DNA from: a virus
Virus record (IMG/VR): IMGVR_UViG_3300021964_000256
Coordinates: 1 to 34,028 of that record
Direction: 5' to 3' (one strand)
Length of the DNA: 34,028 nucleotides
A program made the translations under genes and the position numbers. The notes under the pieces are model-generated. The model saw only the letters and a list, made by a program, of their open reading frames with translations, was not told the DNA's origin and made no database searches. Position 1 is the first letter of the stretch; the number at the start of each line of letters is the position of its first letter. Of this stretch, positions 12,784 to 31,769 are shown in pieces.

Positions 12784-13003
12784 TTTCTTCTACTAAATGT
12801 TGTTTTAATATGCTGTGGGCAACTAAAGACATACCAAGATTAATACCCTTTTCAAATGACAAAGTAATATGCCTTAATACGCTATCATCAACATCATGTT
12901 TAGATTTAATCTCTTGAATTAAATGACCTAGTTCCTCTATAAACACTTTATTAAAATCTTCAACACTTACTCCATTTGCTACTGCTTCTTCAAATGCGCT
13001 CAT
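12761..13003 (-). CDS. Small helical hypothetical protein
   Basis: An 80-residue acidic, helical protein (MSAFEEAVANGVSVEDFNKV, later LRHITLSFEKGINLGMSLVAH). It overlaps the upstream membrane protein by ATGA and the downstream nuclease by 23 nt. No motif was recognised. It may be a partner of the nuclease next to it, but that is only from position. Confidence 0.5.
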   Translation of the reverse strand: MSAFEEAVANGVSVEDFNKVFIEELGHLIQEIKSKHDVDDSVLRHITLSFEKGINLGMSLVAHSILKQHLVEESDESTKH

Positions 13004-13248
13004 TTTTTAGATTCCTCTATTATTAAAAGATGACCATCTACTTCACATCTTACCCCCTTTATGCGAATATAAATTGATGACTCATCTTCCCATTTAATTA
13101 AAAATTTATTTTTATGGCAAATTTTATTGTCATATATGACAGTTTGGGTGTCTAAATAACATCTAACAGCAATACCAAATGCTATAAAAAATATGATTGT
13201 GACTGCAATAAAACTAATAATTTTCCTTAGTAAACTTTGATTTTTCAT
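13000..13248 (-). CDS. Small membrane protein, unknown
   Basis: An 82-residue protein with one transmembrane segment at about residues 9-27 (IISFIAVTIIFFIAFGIAV) and a periplasmic or cytoplasmic tail with three cysteines (CYL, ICHKN, VRCEV). A very strong site, AGGAGG (13256-13261 on this strand), precedes the ATG. It is the first leftward gene after the pqqA-like cassette and its hairpin, so it may be driven by a promoter inside the 13249-13311 gap. A phage-exclusion membrane protein is possible but unsupported. Confidence 0.5.
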   Translation of the reverse strand: MKNQSLLRKIISFIAVTIIFFIAFGIAVRCYLDTQTVIYDNKICHKNKFLIKWEDESSIYIRIKGVRCEVDGHLLIIEESKK

Positions 13249-13274
13249 CTCATCCTCCTAAGTTTGACCGGGTG

Positions 13275-13280
13275 TATAAT
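13275..13280 (+). promoter_or_regulatory. Consensus -10 box for the pqqA-like gene
   Basis: A perfect TATAAT, preceded by TG. It would place the start of transcription near 13287 and give a leader of about 25 nt. No good -35 is found at 16-18 bp (ATCCTC); the TTGACC at 13264-13269 is only 5 bp away and cannot serve. So this is a -10-driven promoter candidate. Confidence 0.45.
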
Positions 13281-13300
13281 GCTAATAAATCTCAAGGAAA

Positions 13301-13304
13301 GGAG
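13301..13304 (+). promoter_or_regulatory. Strong ribosome binding site of the pqqA-like gene
   Basis: GGAG within AAGGAAAGGAG, 7 nt before the ATG at 13312. It decides that the minigene is on the rightward strand, opposite to all flanking genes. Confidence 0.75.
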
Positions 13305-13311
13305 AATCATT

Positions 13312-13383
13312 ATGTGGACAACACCTAGTGCAACTGAAATGCGTTTCGGTTTTGAAGTAACAATGTATGTATGCAATAAGTAA
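13312..13383 (+). CDS. pqqA: PqqA-like coenzyme PQQ precursor peptide
   Basis: A 23-residue peptide too short for usual gene calling. It begins MWTTPSATEMR and contains GFEVTMY, closely matching PqqA (typical MWxKPxxxDLRxGFEVTMY). In PqqA the Glu and Tyr of ExxxY are crosslinked by the radical-SAM enzyme PqqE and become pyrroloquinoline quinone; here they are Glu15 and Tyr19, the same numbers as in 23-residue bacterial PqqA. No pqqB, C, D, E or F gene is present, so the host must supply the enzymes. The gene has its own -10 box, strong SD and hairpin and lies opposite the leftward operon. The end VCNK carries an uncommon Cys. It would boost PQQ for host dehydrogenases. Confidence 0.87.
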   Translation: MWTTPSATEMRFGFEVTMYVCNK

Positions 13384-13395
13384 TTATTGATACTA

Positions 13396-13428
13396 ATATT
13401 CATGGGGGATTTAAGTCCCCCTGAATAT
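13396..13428 (+). terminator. Hairpin after pqqA-like gene, probable bidirectional terminator
   Basis: Stem ATATTCA / TGAATAT, a bulged T, then GGGGGA / TCCCCC, with loop TTTAAG. The U-tract is poor on either strand (ATATATTT rightward). It starts 13 nt after the pqqA-like stop. The TAA of the leftward gene ending at 13411 falls in its loop, so it could end transcripts from both sides. Confidence 0.6.
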
Positions 13429-13593
13429 ATATTTACATTTGACATTAGAACTTCTATACCAATCAGCATCAAACCTAACTCGAACCCAACCTTTTTGATT
13501 TGTAACCCCACCTAAAGGAACTGCATTTTTAGGTAAAAATTGTAGGTTCTCTTTTGGAACTTTTCTATAAATAAATTTAGAACGGAATGTCAT
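13411..13593 (-). CDS. Small hypothetical protein
   Basis: A 60-residue basic protein beginning MTFRSKFIYRKVPKENLQF. I chose the ATG at 13593, which lies in the last codons of the SSB-tail gene (GATGACATTCCG read in the other frame). An in-frame ATG at 13611 is also possible. The sequence LPKNAVPLGGVTNQKGWVRVRF looks like a small beta fold. Its stop lies in the loop of the hairpin at 13396-13428. Unrecognised. Confidence 0.45.
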   Translation of the reverse strand: MTFRSKFIYRKVPKENLQFLPKNAVPLGGVTNQKGWVRVRFDADWYRSSNVKCKYIFRGT

Positions 13594-13828
13594 CTTCCAT
13601 AGCATCCGCACCTTCTACAGCAGGAGCAGACCCTTTTCCATTGTATGGTTCTTGCACTGTGCCACTAATAAACTTAACACCCTTACCTGATTCACGAATC
13701 CAACCTGACAATCTTAGTTCTTTACCATCAACTGTAATTGTTCCAGTGTGAGTTGGTCGTTTAGGGTTATCACCCTGATCGTTCTTAAATAATACAAATG
13801 TATTATTGTTATCGTATTGTTCTGCCAT
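13577..13828 (-). CDS. Small protein with SSB-type C-terminal tip, possible single-strand binding protein
   Basis: An 83-residue protein. The N-terminal 55 residues are beta-rich, of DUF736-like style (NNTFVLFKND, THTGTITVDGKELRLSGWIR, GVKFISGTV), compatible with a small OB-like fold. The end AMEDDIPF is nearly identical to the acidic tip of bacterial SSB (DDDIPF), which binds host replication and repair proteins. With ERF and YqaJ next to it, it may coat ssDNA and recruit host enzymes. DNA binding is inferred; the tip is directly seen. Confidence 0.62.
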   Translation of the reverse strand: MAEQYDNNNTFVLFKNDQGDNPKRPTHTGTITVDGKELRLSGWIRESGKGVKFISGTVQEPYNGKGSAPAVEGADAMEDDIPF

Positions 13829-14028: not shown

Positions 14029-14595
14029 CTACTCTCCTATTTTAAATGTTGGTTTCTTAGTCCAACGTGGTGGTTCAATATCTTTTGCAAGATATTCATT
14101 AACGAAATCTAAAGCATAAGGCATATACCATGCCATAAACTTTTTACTAAATGGAATAGTTTCTAGTTTGGTTTCATTTTCTGTCCATACATAGAAATAT
14201 GCCATGTCTTTTTTATGCACCATCATTTGTAATTGCACCTGGTAATAATACCGGTCTGGTATAGATGGATACACTTCTCTAGTAAAGGGACACTTCACCT
14301 CTACAGGAAATCCTTTATAAATAGCATCAACTGATGCGCCTATGGGTAAACTTTCATGAACAACTAATTTATTTCCTGGTTCAAGAATGTCATCTAGTTC
14401 TTTTTCTAAGCAAGATAATGCTACAGGTTCGTAAAACCTACCATGCTCTGTGGCATCGTTCCCCTGAAAAGGAGGTTCTCTAAACGTCATTTTTCTCCAT
14501 AGACTTTTACGATCATGTATCACTGCATACGCATTGGATGCAGTGATAATGTTATGTCGTCTGTTATCCTTTAGATGATCTGAGTTTGTTTGCAT
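14029..14595 (-). CDS. YqaJ/lambda-type recombination exonuclease
   Basis: A 188-residue nuclease of the PD-(D/E)XK exonuclease family that supplies ssDNA to an annealing protein. Key residues are His51-Gly-Arg...Glu56-Pro (EHGRFYEPVA), Asp90 in GASVDAIY and Glu99-Val-Lys101 in FPVEVKCP, then YYYQVQLQMMV, the standard YqaJ order. It overlaps the end of the ERF gene by 32 nt, so exonuclease and annealase form the usual pair for recombination-driven replication or end processing. Confidence 0.88.
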   Translation of the reverse strand: MQTNSDHLKDNRRHNIITASNAYAVIHDRKSLWRKMTFREPPFQGNDATEHGRFYEPVALSCLEKELDDILEPGNKLVVHESLPIGASVDAIYKGFPVEVKCPFTREVYPSIPDRYYYQVQLQMMVHKKDMAYFYVWTENETKLETIPFSKKFMAWYMPYALDFVNEYLAKDIEPPRWTKKPTFKIGE

Positions 14596-15112
14596 AATCT
14601 CTTAACACCTCCTGAGTATGTGGATCTAATTTAAAGAACTCGCCTTTTAAGTCACCTTCTTCATGTGCCTTTAGTAACCTAGTTTGAATCTTTACAATAT
14701 CTTCATCTGATAAAGTTTTTGGTTCTTCTTTATTAGAATCTCTATTATCTTTAGTGTCTGGATCTTGAGTATCATCTAATAAAAACAAATTTCCTAAAGC
14801 ATATTTCTTTGCATAACTCGAACTTGCTCCGAAAGACTGGGCGATGTCCATGCCCTTACGATTGATACTGATACCTGCTTGCGCAGTAACAGATGCAACT
14901 TCTTCTTTATGTGACAACTGTGCAGTTGCCTGGATATAAGGAATACCCGCGACTTCTTTTACCTCATCAGATATTGTTAAGATGCAATCTTTTAGTAATG
15001 GTTTGACTGCTTCTAAAATATCTTCTGCACTACGATACTTATATTTACCAAAACTATTAAACTGATTCTTTGGTGCTTTTAATTCTTGTTGTATTCTATT
15101 TAGTTCCTTCAT
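14564..15112 (-). CDS. ERF-family single-strand annealing protein
   Basis: A 182-residue ERF (essential recombination function) protein. I chose ATG 15112, which has GGAG in front of it; the longer in-frame ORF from 15181 has no site and reads into the previous gene. The signature GASSSYAKKYALGNLFLLDD followed by TQDPDT is clear, and the N-terminal motif FGKYKYRSAEDILEAVKP is typical. The family forms rings that anneal complementary ssDNA, as in P22 Erf. It is next to the YqaJ-type exonuclease. Confidence 0.9.
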   Translation of the reverse strand: MKELNRIQQELKAPKNQFNSFGKYKYRSAEDILEAVKPLLKDCILTISDEVKEVAGIPYIQATAQLSHKEEVASVTAQAGISINRKGMDIAQSFGASSSYAKKYALGNLFLLDDTQDPDTKDNRDSNKEEPKTLSDEDIVKIQTRLLKAHEEGDLKGEFFKLDPHTQEVLRDYANKLRSSKG

Positions 15113-15221
15113 AACTCTTCTCCTGTTGTTGCTGTTCTTGTTGTTGAATATTGTAAAGACCTTGATCGTTTTCCTGAGCAAACTCTTCGTTTAGTTGTTG
15201 TAAAAATTCTATAAGATCCAT
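15096..15221 (-). CDS. 41-residue Gln-rich protein
   Basis: It begins MDLIEFLQQLNEEFAQENDQ and contains a Gln/Glu run. AGGAGG (15232-15237 on this strand) lies about 10 nt before the ATG, and the ERF start overlaps its end, so it is probably translated in the early operon. No family was recognised. Confidence 0.45.
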   Translation of the reverse strand: MDLIEFLQQLNEEFAQENDQGLYNIQQQEQQQQEKSYEGTK

Positions 15222-22355: not shown

Positions 22356-23042
22356 ATGTTAAATATCTTTGTAGGATTTGATAGAGAAGTAGAACCAGTT
22401 GCATATCATGTGTTCTGCCAAAGTGTAATAGATCGAGCAACGATACCAGTAAGTTTTACACCGCTTGCTTTAAACACATTAAATAATTACATGGAGACAC
22501 ATAATGATGGTTCTAATGCTTTTATCTATTCTCGTTTTTTAGTTCCATATTTATGTGATTTTAGTGGTCATGCTTTATTTGTTGATGGCGATATGTTATG
22601 CCGGGAAGATATATCAGAATTAATTAACACTATAGATAAGACAAAAGCAGTATCAGTAGTCAAACATGACTACAAAACAAAACATCCAGTTAAATACTTA
22701 GGTAATAAGAACGAAGATTATCCTAAAAAGAACTGGTCATCAGTTATGTATTGGAACTGCGGGCATTTTAAGAATAGAGTTTTAACACCTGAATATATTA
22801 TGACTGCTTCCGGGAAGCATTTGCACCGGTTCGAGTGGTTAAACAATGACTTTATAGACTTAGTCGGTGAAATACCTAAGGAATGGAATTGGTTAGTCTC
22901 TGAATACGAATACAATCCTGATGCTAAGTTAGTTCACTTTACAATAGGAACACCATGCTTTAGTGATTACAAAGATTGTGATTACGCAGAAGAATGGGAA
23001 TTTCAGTTAGATAACTTATTAATACCGATGGATAGATCATGA
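22356..23042 (+). CDS. GT8-like glycosyltransferase
   Basis: A 228-residue protein: LNIFVGFDREVEPVAYHVFC opens like family-8 transferases, YSRFLVPYLC and HALFVDGDMLC include the DxD motif (Asp77-Gly-Asp79), SVMYWNCGHF and WLNNDFIDLVGEIPKEWNWL follow in the right order, and LVHFTIGTP gives the late His. Such enzymes move a sugar from a nucleotide donor. The substrate may be the host surface or the virion. It overlaps the next gene by ATGA. No signal peptide is present, so it should act in the cytoplasm. Confidence 0.78.
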   Translation: MLNIFVGFDREVEPVAYHVFCQSVIDRATIPVSFTPLALNTLNNYMETHNDGSNAFIYSRFLVPYLCDFSGHALFVDGDMLCREDISELINTIDKTKAVSVVKHDYKTKHPVKYLGNKNEDYPKKNWSSVMYWNCGHFKNRVLTPEYIMTASGKHLHRFEWLNNDFIDLVGEIPKEWNWLVSEYEYNPDAKLVHFTIGTPCFSDYKDCDYAEEWEFQLDNLLIPMDRS

Positions 23043-23640: not shown

Positions 23641-23970
23641 ATGGAACACGATGATAATATAGAACAAGAACCTGGATGGGGCGGTAAACGAGAAGGTGCA
23701 GGCGCTCCTAAAAACAATCAAAATGCTAGTAAAAGCAATAGGTTATATGCAGAAACAATCAAGAGGATTAATGTTCAGTCTGAAGGACAGGTAGCATATG
23801 ATATTGCTATGGCATTAATTACAAAAGCAAAAGATGGCGACATCTCTGCTATCAAAGAGTTTGGTGATAGAGTAGATGGTAAAGCAGTATCTACAACAGA
23901 ATTATCAGGAATAGATGGGGCAGATCTTCCAATAGGTATTACAGTAGAGTATGTCAAATCTAAAGATTAA
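23641..23970 (+). CDS. Terminase small subunit
   Basis: A 109-residue protein with the N-terminal GWGGKREGAGAPKNNQNASK, the usual head of many phage TerS proteins, followed by a helix-turn-helix-like and oligomerising region (GQVAYDIAMALITKAKDGDI). TerS recognises phage DNA to begin packaging. CGGAG lies in front of the ATG, and the gene overlaps the large subunit by 20 nt. The combination with a P22-like portal suggests headful packaging, but this is inferred. Confidence 0.82.
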   Translation: MEHDDNIEQEPGWGGKREGAGAPKNNQNASKSNRLYAETIKRINVQSEGQVAYDIAMALITKAKDGDISAIKEFGDRVDGKAVSTTELSGIDGADLPIGITVEYVKSKD

Positions 23971-25216
23971 AGCAAAGTTTCCTGAAATACTAAAGTTTCT
24001 ATCTGAACCATATAGATATAAAATCTTATTCGGTGGTCGAGGTAGTGGAAAATCTTGGGGAGTTGCTAGAGAATTACTAATACAAGGAGCAATGAAAAAT
24101 AATCCATTGCGTATTCTTTGTGCAAGGGAAATACAACGATCAATTAAGCAGTCAGTTCACCAATTACTATCAGATCAGATACAAGAGTTAGGACTAGGAT
24201 CATTCTATGATGTCCTGGAAAACGAGATACGAGGTAGAAACGGAACAAAGTTTAGTTTTACTGGTCTTGCAAACAACACAGTAGAAAGTATTAAATCATA
24301 CGAAGGTGTTGACAGAGTATGGATCGAGGAAGCGCAAACAGTTAGTAAGAAGTCATGGGACATCTTAATCCCTACGATTCGTAAACCAGGTTCAGAGATA
24401 TGGGTAACATTTAACCCATCATTAGATACAGATGATACTTACCAACGATTTGTAGTTAATCCACCTGAGAACAGTAAGGTTGTTAAGATTAATTATAATG
24501 ACAATCCATTCTTTCCGGATGTTCTTGAGCAAGAAAGACTATACAGTAAAGAGCATGACCCTGATTATGGAAACATATGGGAAGGTGAATGTAAGAGTGC
24601 AGTTGATGGTGCTATCTATGCTAGTGAGATAACACAAGCACAAGAACAAGGGCGGGTAACAAGAGTTCCTTATGACCCATCACTGAAAGTTCATGTAGTC
24701 ATGGATTTAGGTTGGAACGATAGTATGTCGATCATACTTGTGCAAAAAGGTGTATCTGATATTCGTATCATTAACTACATTGAAGATGACCATAGAACAT
24801 TAGACAGTTACTCTGCACAACTAAAAGATATGAAATACAATTGGGGTCAGATGTATTTACCTCATGATGGTAGAACAAAAGATTTTAAACATGGTATCTC
24901 AGCAGAAGATATTATGCGCAGATATGATTGGGATGTTCGCATTGTGCCAAGACTTGATATAGAATCAGGTATAAGAGTTGCAAGGATGAACTTTCATCGT
25001 ATCTACTTTGACACAAATGCTCATCGTTTAATCGAATGTCTTAAGCATTACAGACGTGGTATTAGTGCCACAACAAATGAACCAGGCGCACCAGTGCATG
25101 ACCAATATTCACATGGTGCTGATGCGTTTCGTTATTTAGCAGTATCTATACAAGATATGACCAATGAGTCCTGGCATAATAGCGAGATACAATATTCTAA
25201 TTTAGGAATCGTTTAA
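23951..25216 (+). CDS. Terminase large subunit
   Basis: A 421-residue TerL. Walker A is GGRGSGKS (residues 28-35), Walker B is VWIEEA (123-128), followed by FNPSLDTDDTYQRF and KINYNDNPFFP. The nuclease domain starts with VMDLGWNDSMSI (first acidic Asp) and continues to YSHGADAFRYLAV with the last Asp. The family is PBSX/Terminase_3-like. It drives packaging through the portal encoded next, with which it shares a TAATG junction. Confidence 0.93.
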   Translation: MSNLKIKAKFPEILKFLSEPYRYKILFGGRGSGKSWGVARELLIQGAMKNNPLRILCAREIQRSIKQSVHQLLSDQIQELGLGSFYDVLENEIRGRNGTKFSFTGLANNTVESIKSYEGVDRVWIEEAQTVSKKSWDILIPTIRKPGSEIWVTFNPSLDTDDTYQRFVVNPPENSKVVKINYNDNPFFPDVLEQERLYSKEHDPDYGNIWEGECKSAVDGAIYASEITQAQEQGRVTRVPYDPSLKVHVVMDLGWNDSMSIILVQKGVSDIRIINYIEDDHRTLDSYSAQLKDMKYNWGQMYLPHDGRTKDFKHGISAEDIMRRYDWDVRIVPRLDIESGIRVARMNFHRIYFDTNAHRLIECLKHYRRGISATTNEPGAPVHDQYSHGADAFRYLAVSIQDMTNESWHNSEIQYSNLGIV

Positions 25217-29637: not shown

Positions 29638-29964
29638 ATGGCAATATTTTTCGACAAAGATCCTTTAACAGGAATCACACAATATTATGACTATGACCCA
29701 TCTAAAGATGAGCATATGATTCATAGCGTGCAAGATCCAACTGCTTTAATTGAAAAGTTAAAAGTAGCAAGAAACAATCCTGAAATATGGAGTAAGGGTG
29801 TAAAAGAATCTTGGGTTCACTATGCAAGTATCCCGCCAATTGTAGAAATGCAATTAAAAGCAAAAGGCATAGACATCTATAATAAAGATCAAACAAAAGA
29901 GTTAATGAAAGAGATTAACGAAAACTATCCGTTTCTAAAAACAACTACAAAGAAACATGGATAA
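29638..29964 (+). CDS. Conserved small protein after capsid gene
   Basis: A 108-residue protein with DKDPLTGITQYYDYDPSKDE at the start, GVKESWVHYASIPPIVEMQL and KGIDIYNKDQTKELMKEINE. It is a pattern I recognise from the position just after the capsid gene in many podophages, but its role is unknown. It is probably a head-associated or assembly protein. It overlaps the TPR gene by 8 nt. Confidence 0.7.
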   Translation: MAIFFDKDPLTGITQYYDYDPSKDEHMIHSVQDPTALIEKLKVARNNPEIWSKGVKESWVHYASIPPIVEMQLKAKGIDIYNKDQTKELMKEINENYPFLKTTTKKHG

Positions 29965-31276
29965 AGAAGAATTACAAAAGGTTCAATTAGCAATTCATGA
30001 TCTCGTAAACAAAGAAGATTATGAAACTGCAATGCCTTTAATATACGCAGTATTAGAACAGCATCCAGAAGATGCTCCTACATTAAACTTTCTAGGTTAC
30101 ATTTGGTTGATGGGTGATAAACCCGCATTAGCATATCAAATGTTTAGACGTGCATTACAAGAGAGTCCAGGCAACAAGGCATTATGGACATCGTTGGGCA
30201 GAGCGTGTCATGAAATGGATATGCCGGAAGATGCACTAAAATACTTTCTAAAGTCTGCTGAATTAGATAACAATTATGCTCAGGCATACAGTAACGCATC
30301 TGCTACACTTGTTCAGATGTCAGAATGGAAGAACGCAGAAGAAACTTGCAAACTTGCATTAGAGTGTGATCCTAATGATTTAAACGCACAGTTAAATTTA
30401 GCGCACTGTTACCTGGCACAAGGTGAGTGGGAACAAGGTTGGAAACAATGGGGTAAGTCACTAGGTGGAAAGTTCAGAAAAGAATGGTTCTATGGTGACG
30501 AAACAAGATGGGAAGGTCAAAAAGACAAGAACATTGTTATATATGGTGAGCAAGGATTAGGAGATGAAATCTTCTATGCAAACTGTATTAACAAGGCAAT
30601 AGATATAAGCAAAAAAGTATATATAGATTGTGACTCTAGGTTAGAGGGTCTGTTTAGACGTAGTTTCCCTAGTGCAGAAGTCTACGGAACAAGAAGAGAC
30701 GACCATCCTTCTTGGATTTCAGATGCGACTATTGACCATCGTTGCCCGATAGGGGGATTACCTGAATTCTTTTGGTTAGACTCTAAAGAGTTTAATAGAG
30801 AACCTTATCTGAAGGCAGACCATGATAGACGAATGATGTGGAGAGCATTGTTTGATTCATGGGGTAAGAAAGTAATAGGTATAACAACACATGGTGGTCT
30901 TAAAATGACCAACAAAAAGGGTCGTGAATTAACACAAGAAGATTTACAACCTTTACTAGATAAAGATTATGTATTTATATCATTAGACTATAATCCTGAA
31001 AAAAGATTAGATGGTGTTAAATACTTTGACTTTGCAACAATGTCTAATGACTATGACGATACCGCAGGGTTAATTGCAGAACTTGATGCAGTGGTTGGAG
31101 TTAATACTACAGCATTACATTGCGCATCTGCATTAGGAGTTAAAACAATATGTTTAGTTCCTAAATGGCATCAATGGAGATATGCTCATCCAAGTATGCC
31201 TTTTTATAGAAGCATGAGTCTTAAATACCAAGACGATAAGTCCTGGAGAGAAGTAATTGAATCAATTAATATCTGA
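29957..31276 (+). CDS. TPR protein fused to a glycosyltransferase-B-like domain
   Basis: A 439-residue protein. Residues about 5-165 are four TPR repeats (AMPLIYAVLEQHPEDAPTLN, GNKALWTSLGRACHEMDMPE, NAQLNLAHCYLAQGEWEQGW). Residues 190-439 match the family-9/41-type donor domain: VIYGEQGLGDEIFYANCINK, VIGITTHGG and LDAVVGVNTTALHCASALGV then LVPKWHQWRY. Such TPR-GT proteins add sugars to protein targets. Placed in the head genes, directly after the capsid gene, it may glycosylate the capsid or a fibre. The first helix at the N-terminus is atypical. Confidence 0.75.
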   Translation: MDKEELQKVQLAIHDLVNKEDYETAMPLIYAVLEQHPEDAPTLNFLGYIWLMGDKPALAYQMFRRALQESPGNKALWTSLGRACHEMDMPEDALKYFLKSAELDNNYAQAYSNASATLVQMSEWKNAEETCKLALECDPNDLNAQLNLAHCYLAQGEWEQGWKQWGKSLGGKFRKEWFYGDETRWEGQKDKNIVIYGEQGLGDEIFYANCINKAIDISKKVYIDCDSRLEGLFRRSFPSAEVYGTRRDDHPSWISDATIDHRCPIGGLPEFFWLDSKEFNREPYLKADHDRRMMWRALFDSWGKKVIGITTHGGLKMTNKKGRELTQEDLQPLLDKDYVFISLDYNPEKRLDGVKYFDFATMSNDYDDTAGLIAELDAVVGVNTTALHCASALGVKTICLVPKWHQWRYAHPSMPFYRSMSLKYQDDKSWREVIESINI

Positions 31277-31769
31277 CGAATATAGAGAGATGCAGGCAAA
31301 ACTGCATGAGAACCCTAATTATGGGATCGCATCTACTTATTTTGCACCTATTGTTGATGATATTATTAAAAACTTTAACATTAAAGATTTATTAGATTAT
31401 GGAGCAGGTAAGTTAAGACTTAGAGATAGCATTAAAGAAAAAGTAAACTACTCTGCATACGAACCTAGTAACCCTGATTACGATGCAGAACCTGAACCAA
31501 CAGAATTTGTAACCTGCATAGATGTATTAGAACATATTGAACCTGAATTACTTGATAATGTATTAGACGACTTACAAAGAGTCACAATAAAATATGGTTT
31601 GTTTACTATACATACAGGACCGGCAGTAAAGACACTTCCAGATGGCAGAAATGCACATCTAATACAGCAACCATTTACATGGTGGCAACCAAAGATTAAA
31701 GAGCGATTTGACATAGTAAGAGAAGTTGCTATGGACAATGGTTATCTTGTATTTGTAAAACACAAATAA
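31257..31769 (+). CDS. SAM-dependent methyltransferase-like protein
   Basis: A 170-residue protein from TTG 31257, with GGAGAG 7 nt upstream and a 20-nt overlap with the TPR gene. The motif LLDYGAGKLRL (45-55) is the nucleotide-binding Gly loop, FVTCIDVLEHIEPELLDNVL is motif III/post-II region and KYGLFTIHTGPAV the next strand. It is a class I fold, but shortened. The substrate is unknown; the coupling with the TPR-glycosyltransferase suggests that it methylates the same sugar or protein. Confidence 0.66.
   Translation: MNQLISDEYREMQAKLHENPNYGIASTYFAPIVDDIIKNFNIKDLLDYGAGKLRLRDSIKEKVNYSAYEPSNPDYDAEPEPTEFVTCIDVLEHIEPELLDNVLDDLQRVTIKYGLFTIHTGPAVKTLPDGRNAHLIQQPFTWWQPKIKERFDIVREVAMDNGYLVFVKHK

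Follow-up and report, generated by a model that had tools for sequence, protein, structure and literature searches.

The window analysed here, the whole 34,028-nt stretch of IMG/VR virus record IMGVR_UViG_3300021964_000256, carries a stand-alone gene for PqqA, the 23-residue PQQ precursor peptide. At a probability of roughly 0.78, the phage gene is functional and would supply the consumed PQQ precursor to host enzymes, sustaining methanol oxidation during infection. Stand-alone pqqA is likely a near-universal and repeatedly acquired hallmark of Methylophilales phages across unrelated lineages, which has escaped notice since 23-codon ORFs are passed over by gene callers. It would form a distinct class of auxiliary gene, with the phage contributing just the consumed precursor and the host carrying out its maturation, and would act as a one-gene host marker.

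The pqqA reading frame and its setting

The ORF at 13312-13383 on the plus strand translates to MWTTPSATEMRFGFEVTMYVCNK followed by a stop (23 aa). The peptide matches the PqqA profile PF08042 (Pfam) with E=1.4e-10 and 41.3 bits (cut-off 21.1) over 19/19 profile positions, and the equivalog TIGR02107 with E=2.2e-11 and 43.3 bits (cut-off 20) over 21/21 positions; both curated PqqA cut-offs are exceeded by about 20 bits. A six-frame search of the record recovered the same gene (E=4.9e-11), and none of the 14 control genomes gave a match. At the level of sequence, this match, far beyond chance, confirms the identification as a genuine PqqA that a sequence-only reading of the window had proposed. 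The ExxxY pair is E15-V-T-M-Y19, so that Glu15 and Tyr19, placed by that reading where the translation has them, are the PQQ-forming pair. The strong Shine-Dalgarno sequence that it described before the 23-codon ORF is AAAGGAG at 13298..13304 (plus strand), as read from the sequence, 7 nt 5' of the ATG; it is kept in close relatives and in solo pqqA copies of OM43-type hosts. A longer in-frame ORF with a TTG start extends over 13237-13383, and an antisense ORF with a GTG start overlaps pqqA at 13245-13511; the antisense frame is interrupted by stops in relatives L289 and L293. ATG 13312 is taken as the start in view of the Shine-Dalgarno sequence, the conservation of this start and the fact that all changes are synonymous.

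A -10-like box, TATAAT, lies at 13275..13280 (plus strand), about 31 nt 5' of the ATG, and close relatives keep GYGTATAAT in the same position. The window contains two occurrences of GTGTATAAT, where 0.74 would be expected. The promoter scan found no full sigma-70 site and no -35 box at pqqA, and a complete sigma-70 promoter was rejected. A hairpin 3' of pqqA (13396..13428, plus strand; -19.3 kcal/mol, z -3.7) is conserved among close relatives and may act as a terminator where the pqqA and SSB units converge; it has no T-run, and the terminator scan made no call. Because neither a -35 box nor a T-run was found, the pqqA transcription unit is only putative. Rfam and tRNA scans of the window gave no matches.

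The gene stands alone on the plus strand with minus-strand genes on both sides and is antisense to an SSB/exonuclease/ERF operon. Upstream and divergent is an 82-aa ORF of unassigned function (13000..13248, minus strand) without a PHROG match. Convergent with pqqA is the gene for a single-strand DNA-binding protein, SSB (13577..13828, minus strand; PHROG 18154, E=1.3e-11), followed on the same strand by genes for a RecE/YqaJ-like exonuclease (14029..14595; PHROG 434, E=6.8e-21) and an ERF-like ssDNA annealing protein (14564..15124; PHROG 155, E=3.9e-38). The terminase large subunit (23951..25216, plus strand; PHROG 3717, E=1.2e-68), used as lineage marker, identifies the record as a tailed phage, and portal, capsid and helicase genes are present on the same contig. 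These phage genes, the same pqqA site in relatives and the occurrence of pqqA in isolated phages place the gene in a true phage genome, not in a host fragment. The window contains no methanol dehydrogenase and no PQQ gene besides pqqA. Also, a glycosyltransferase family 8 gene (22356-23042) lies 5' of the terminase, and a TPR protein (29957-31276) is followed by a methyltransferase-like ORF (31257-31769, below cut-off).

Conservation and distribution among phages

Relatives were collected with the exonuclease as bait, independently of the pqqA sequence. This search yielded 25 relatives with exonuclease identities of 60-87%. The sequence-only reading had expected the peptide in related phages, and pqqA was present antisense to the SSB/exonuclease/ERF operon in all 20 relatives whose contig passes the site; the other five contigs end before it. 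Glu15, Tyr19 and the whole PqqA core are kept in all 20, and none of these copies is broken. With the terminase as bait, pqqA was found in 11/12 contigs of at least 20 kb, the exception being the 30-kb contig G077. The four closest distinct pqqA copies show synonymous differences only. For nine distinct relatives the pN/pS ratio is about 0.10; for a larger set of 114 distinct viral sequences it is 0.17. The larger set was mostly gathered via the motif GFEVTMY, so the conservation of this motif within it is not independent evidence. Phage pqqA is under purifying selection. One viral contig, G085 (L377, 52,362 bp), has two pqqA copies (1948-2004 and 40838-40894), which may reflect a true duplication or a single genome repeated in the assembly.

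A tblastn search of 50,697 phage records was made with PqqA of the window and with Pseudomonas-type and alphaproteobacterial-type PqqA. The stand-alone pqqA sought in other viruses was found in cultured methylophages: nine records of Methylophilales phages matched, namely P19250A, Venkman, MEP301, MEP401, MEP402 and four Melnitz variants. The remaining matches were the spring virus ctXG6705, mislabelled Acinetobacter chromosome contigs and one chance-level match. The gene is present in all nine cultured methylophage records of the collection, a small sample from which the taxonomy-listed MEP431-434, EXVC038S and HIM624-A are absent. Nothing is annotated at pqqA in six of the ten phage records (the nine and ctXG6705); in ctXG6705 and Melnitz the annotated ORF is on the strand opposite to pqqA. 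No tblastn match among the 50,697 records lay in a phage of Pseudomonas or of another PQQ-making host, and none lay in those Pelagibacter and Vibrio phages that are closest to Venkman and MEP402. HTVC008M, LKA5 and four spring viruses, which are related phages with other hosts, proved negative for pqqA in a profile test. Within these records the gene is restricted to Methylophilales phages and the one spring virus.

Like the window, P19250A, Venkman, MEP301, MEP401/402 and Melnitz carry a stand-alone, unannotated pqqA, whereas their lineages and gene neighbourhoods differ from those of the window. Terminase comparison shows no detectable relatedness among the window, P19250A and MEP402, and puts MEP301 at the limit of detection. 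Between Venkman and ctXG6705 the terminases are 74% identical, and both are about 31% identical to that of the window. Melnitz is T4-like (PMC9004378), and its PqqA is the most divergent of the cultured-phage copies (68% identity). Since five phage lineages, the window included, carry pqqA, the gene tracks the host and not the phage lineage.

The IMG/VR scan gave at least 120 contigs. Among the matches listed, the PqqA ORF is complete in 120/120; 93 have proteins in common with the window, ctXG6705 or cultured methylophages, two are host-DNA-like, and 25 are neither. The 32 records taken from viral collections have one pqqA each (including G021, later judged host DNA), and in none of them does PqqE exceed its cut-off; PqqB was absent from all 25 contigs tested. 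A PqqE profile match of 27.7 bits, below cut-off, at 47246-47494 of G031 (L064, 52,352 bp) lies in a 385-aa frame and is some radical-SAM protein. Several viral contigs (L025, L028, L004, L013, L018, L024 and others) encode PqqA of a non-Methylophilales type (e.g. MKWETPSFEDLRFGFEVTMYINASN) without PqqB; these contigs are perhaps phages of other PQQ-making hosts.

Some contigs were set aside. L129 (CAKLQF020000010.1, 'Acinetobacter phage MD-2021a') contains ppk, pqqB, pqqC, pqqD and a radical-SAM gene; the MD-2021a matches are bacterial chromosome, because pqqB, pqqC and pqqD follow pqqA. The 72-kb G021 (L043; IMG/VR UViG 3300025120_009955) has a full-length PQQ alcohol dehydrogenase together with pqqA. 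It is probably host DNA, since its neighbouring genes are formate-dehydrogenase-like, SoxY/SoxZ and CHASE2/cyclase and it resembles host loci only, and the viral link between pqqA and methanol dehydrogenase that it offered was dropped. G021 and possibly L030, both classed as viral, resemble Methylophilales chromosome and are probably misclassified. An alphaproteobacterial-type match in the viral contig L388 is a chance match within a long unrelated frame, and L389, with a real alphaproteobacterial-type PqqA, was dropped as a contig not shown to be phage.

Viral PqqA was reported from Lake Baikal viruses together with methanol dehydrogenase (PMC7678222), and a sediment viral gene list mentions pqqA (PMC13188868). 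The T4-like Baikal viral population VP_266 and the window both have a phage-borne pqqA, a predicted Methylophilaceae host and the same proposed role; VP_266 was described with a viral methanol dehydrogenase, whereas the window phage belongs to a small-genome lineage without one (PMC7678222). That pqqA recurs among cultured methylophages is not described there (PMC7678222). The Melnitz, MEP401/402, Venkman and MEP301 papers do not mention phage pqqA, and no report of its recurrence across cultured methylophages was found in the literature searched, which excluded preprints and most subscription journals. A single phage pqqA is therefore of a kind already reported (PMC7678222), and the new part is apparently that all nine records of cultured methylophages carry it.

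Relation to host pqqA genes

Among cellular genes, those closest to the phage gene are solo pqqA copies in two OM43-type genomes, a marine MAG (69/72 nt) and LSUCC0665 (68/72 nt). Alignment with Methylophilales PqqA, which the sequence-only reading had suggested, showed that the phage peptide differs from the PqqA of each of these two, OM43 LSUCC0665 included, at a single residue (22/23 aa). Every residue of phage PqqA is inside or adjacent to the host range of variation. The phage peptide shares its length, the Glu/Tyr pair and a similar pre-ATG leader with PqqA of OM43 and other Methylophilales. Unlike the host genes, the window pqqA is antisense to a recombination operon, has its own hairpin and is accompanied by no other pqq gene. 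The likeness to host pqqA is limited to the coding region and a short leader just 5' of the ATG; acquisition of a host cassette together with flanking DNA was rejected, flank similarity not being above that of shuffles. A methylotroph host such as OM43, as first suggested from the window alone, is strongly supported, since the nearest copies are OM43-type and the known carriers are phages of OM43 or of its freshwater sister group; the window phage is accordingly predicted to infect an OM43-type host.

The host genomes hold several pqqA genes: three in each of six OM43-type genomes, one in a partial single-cell OM43-type genome, two in Methylopumilus, five in Methylophilus and seven in Methylotenera. 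PqqE, by which the presence of PQQ enzymes was judged on the side of these presumed hosts, exceeds its cut-off exactly once in 9/10 Methylophilales genomes and not at all in the partial single-cell genome. OM43 LSUCC0665 has a single PQQ alcohol dehydrogenase above the family cut-off. Methylophilaceae were reported to have 3-12 pqqA and usually one set of the other pqq genes (PMC4109929), and a PQQ producer has five pqqA copies with different expression (PMC9851590). In an OM43 isolate, xoxF was the most abundant transcript (PMC5120137). Retention of three pqqA in hosts with streamlined genomes suggests that PqqA dosage matters. Also, a conserved 31-32-aa ORF with the consensus end WPFHNWxCTCPICSAK lies between tandem pqqA genes in the OM43-type host genomes L249, L251, L252, L253 and L254; its DNA pattern was found in no viral contig.

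Proposed role and alternative explanations

One PqqA is consumed per PQQ, and PqqB-E are reused. When infection lowers host expression, the PQQ enzymes would persist and the PqqA precursor would run out. Many replicating phage genomes, each with pqqA, could keep up, restore or raise the PqqA supply, and the catalytic steps (PqqB-E, proteases) would be left to host enzymes already present. Phage pqqA would thus be transcribed and its peptide processed by host PqqD/PqqE, and the resulting PQQ would keep the XoxF-type methanol dehydrogenase, a PQQ-dependent enzyme and the host entry step for methanol, working during infection; PQQ would rise and the phage would benefit. A single precursor gene, no enzymes, a tie to the host and purifying selection fit this substrate-supply role. 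A raised PQQ supply for methanol dehydrogenase, the role first proposed from the sequence, would fit all the evidence. The presence of pqqA in every cultured methylophage examined suggests that precursor supply matters for infection. Cyanophage auxiliary metabolic genes of the psbA type are likewise phage copies of a high-turnover host component and track host physiology; the pqqA product differs in being a consumed precursor peptide and not an enzyme or photosystem subunit.

The PQQ could instead serve mainly another host dehydrogenase or redox role, or be released and affect superinfection, which is considered unlikely. PQQ exits cells, other bacteria import it, and it blocks infection by an E. 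coli phage whose receptor is the PQQ importer (PMC12124388). However, the tblastn search found no pqqA in phages of other PQQ makers such as Pseudomonas, and the restriction to Methylophilales phages points to methanol dehydrogenase as the PQQ user, as does the lone PQQ alcohol dehydrogenase of OM43 LSUCC0665. Rather improbable is a decoy or regulator, in which phage PqqA would occupy PqqD/PqqE or a PQQ-sensing regulator and lower or retime PQQ, for example limiting formaldehyde. The gene does stand alone without enzymes, and a short peptide whose sequence binds well could act as a competitor for PqqD/PqqE, but a decoy would be expected to alter or drop the reactive pair, whereas all relatives collected independently of the peptide retain Glu15, Tyr19 and the core, and the sequence stays within host variation. 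The close identity to the host copy and the very short gene would suit a recent host-derived passenger without phage function; this is very doubtful, given one site kept across clearly diverged relatives with exonuclease identities of 60-87%, synonymous change only among the closest of them, and recurrence in several phage lineages. An attachment-site copy, carried by a phage that integrates into host pqqA and so keeps that gene intact, would account for the near identity (69/72 nt) and was rejected as extremely improbable: no integrase of the tyrosine type (PF00589), the class searched for, was found in 24 records, the window and 23 others, host likeness ends at the coding region save for the short leader, the synonymous differences among relatives are not expected of an attachment core, and T4-like Melnitz also has pqqA.

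Precursor supply by phage pqqA, the preferred reading, would be a need common to phages that are unrelated to one another but infect abundant methylotrophs of marine and fresh waters, and this shared need would point to methanol oxidation remaining active in infected cells. In viral metagenomics, pqqA may serve as a marker of methylotroph hosts for uncultured viruses, and its case shows that auxiliary-gene surveys miss very short genes. Cultured phage-host pairs with pqqA are Venkman and Melnitz on H5P1, MEP301 on HTCC2181, and MEP401/402 on FZCC0133; since all carry the gene, the idea of precursor supply is directly testable in them.
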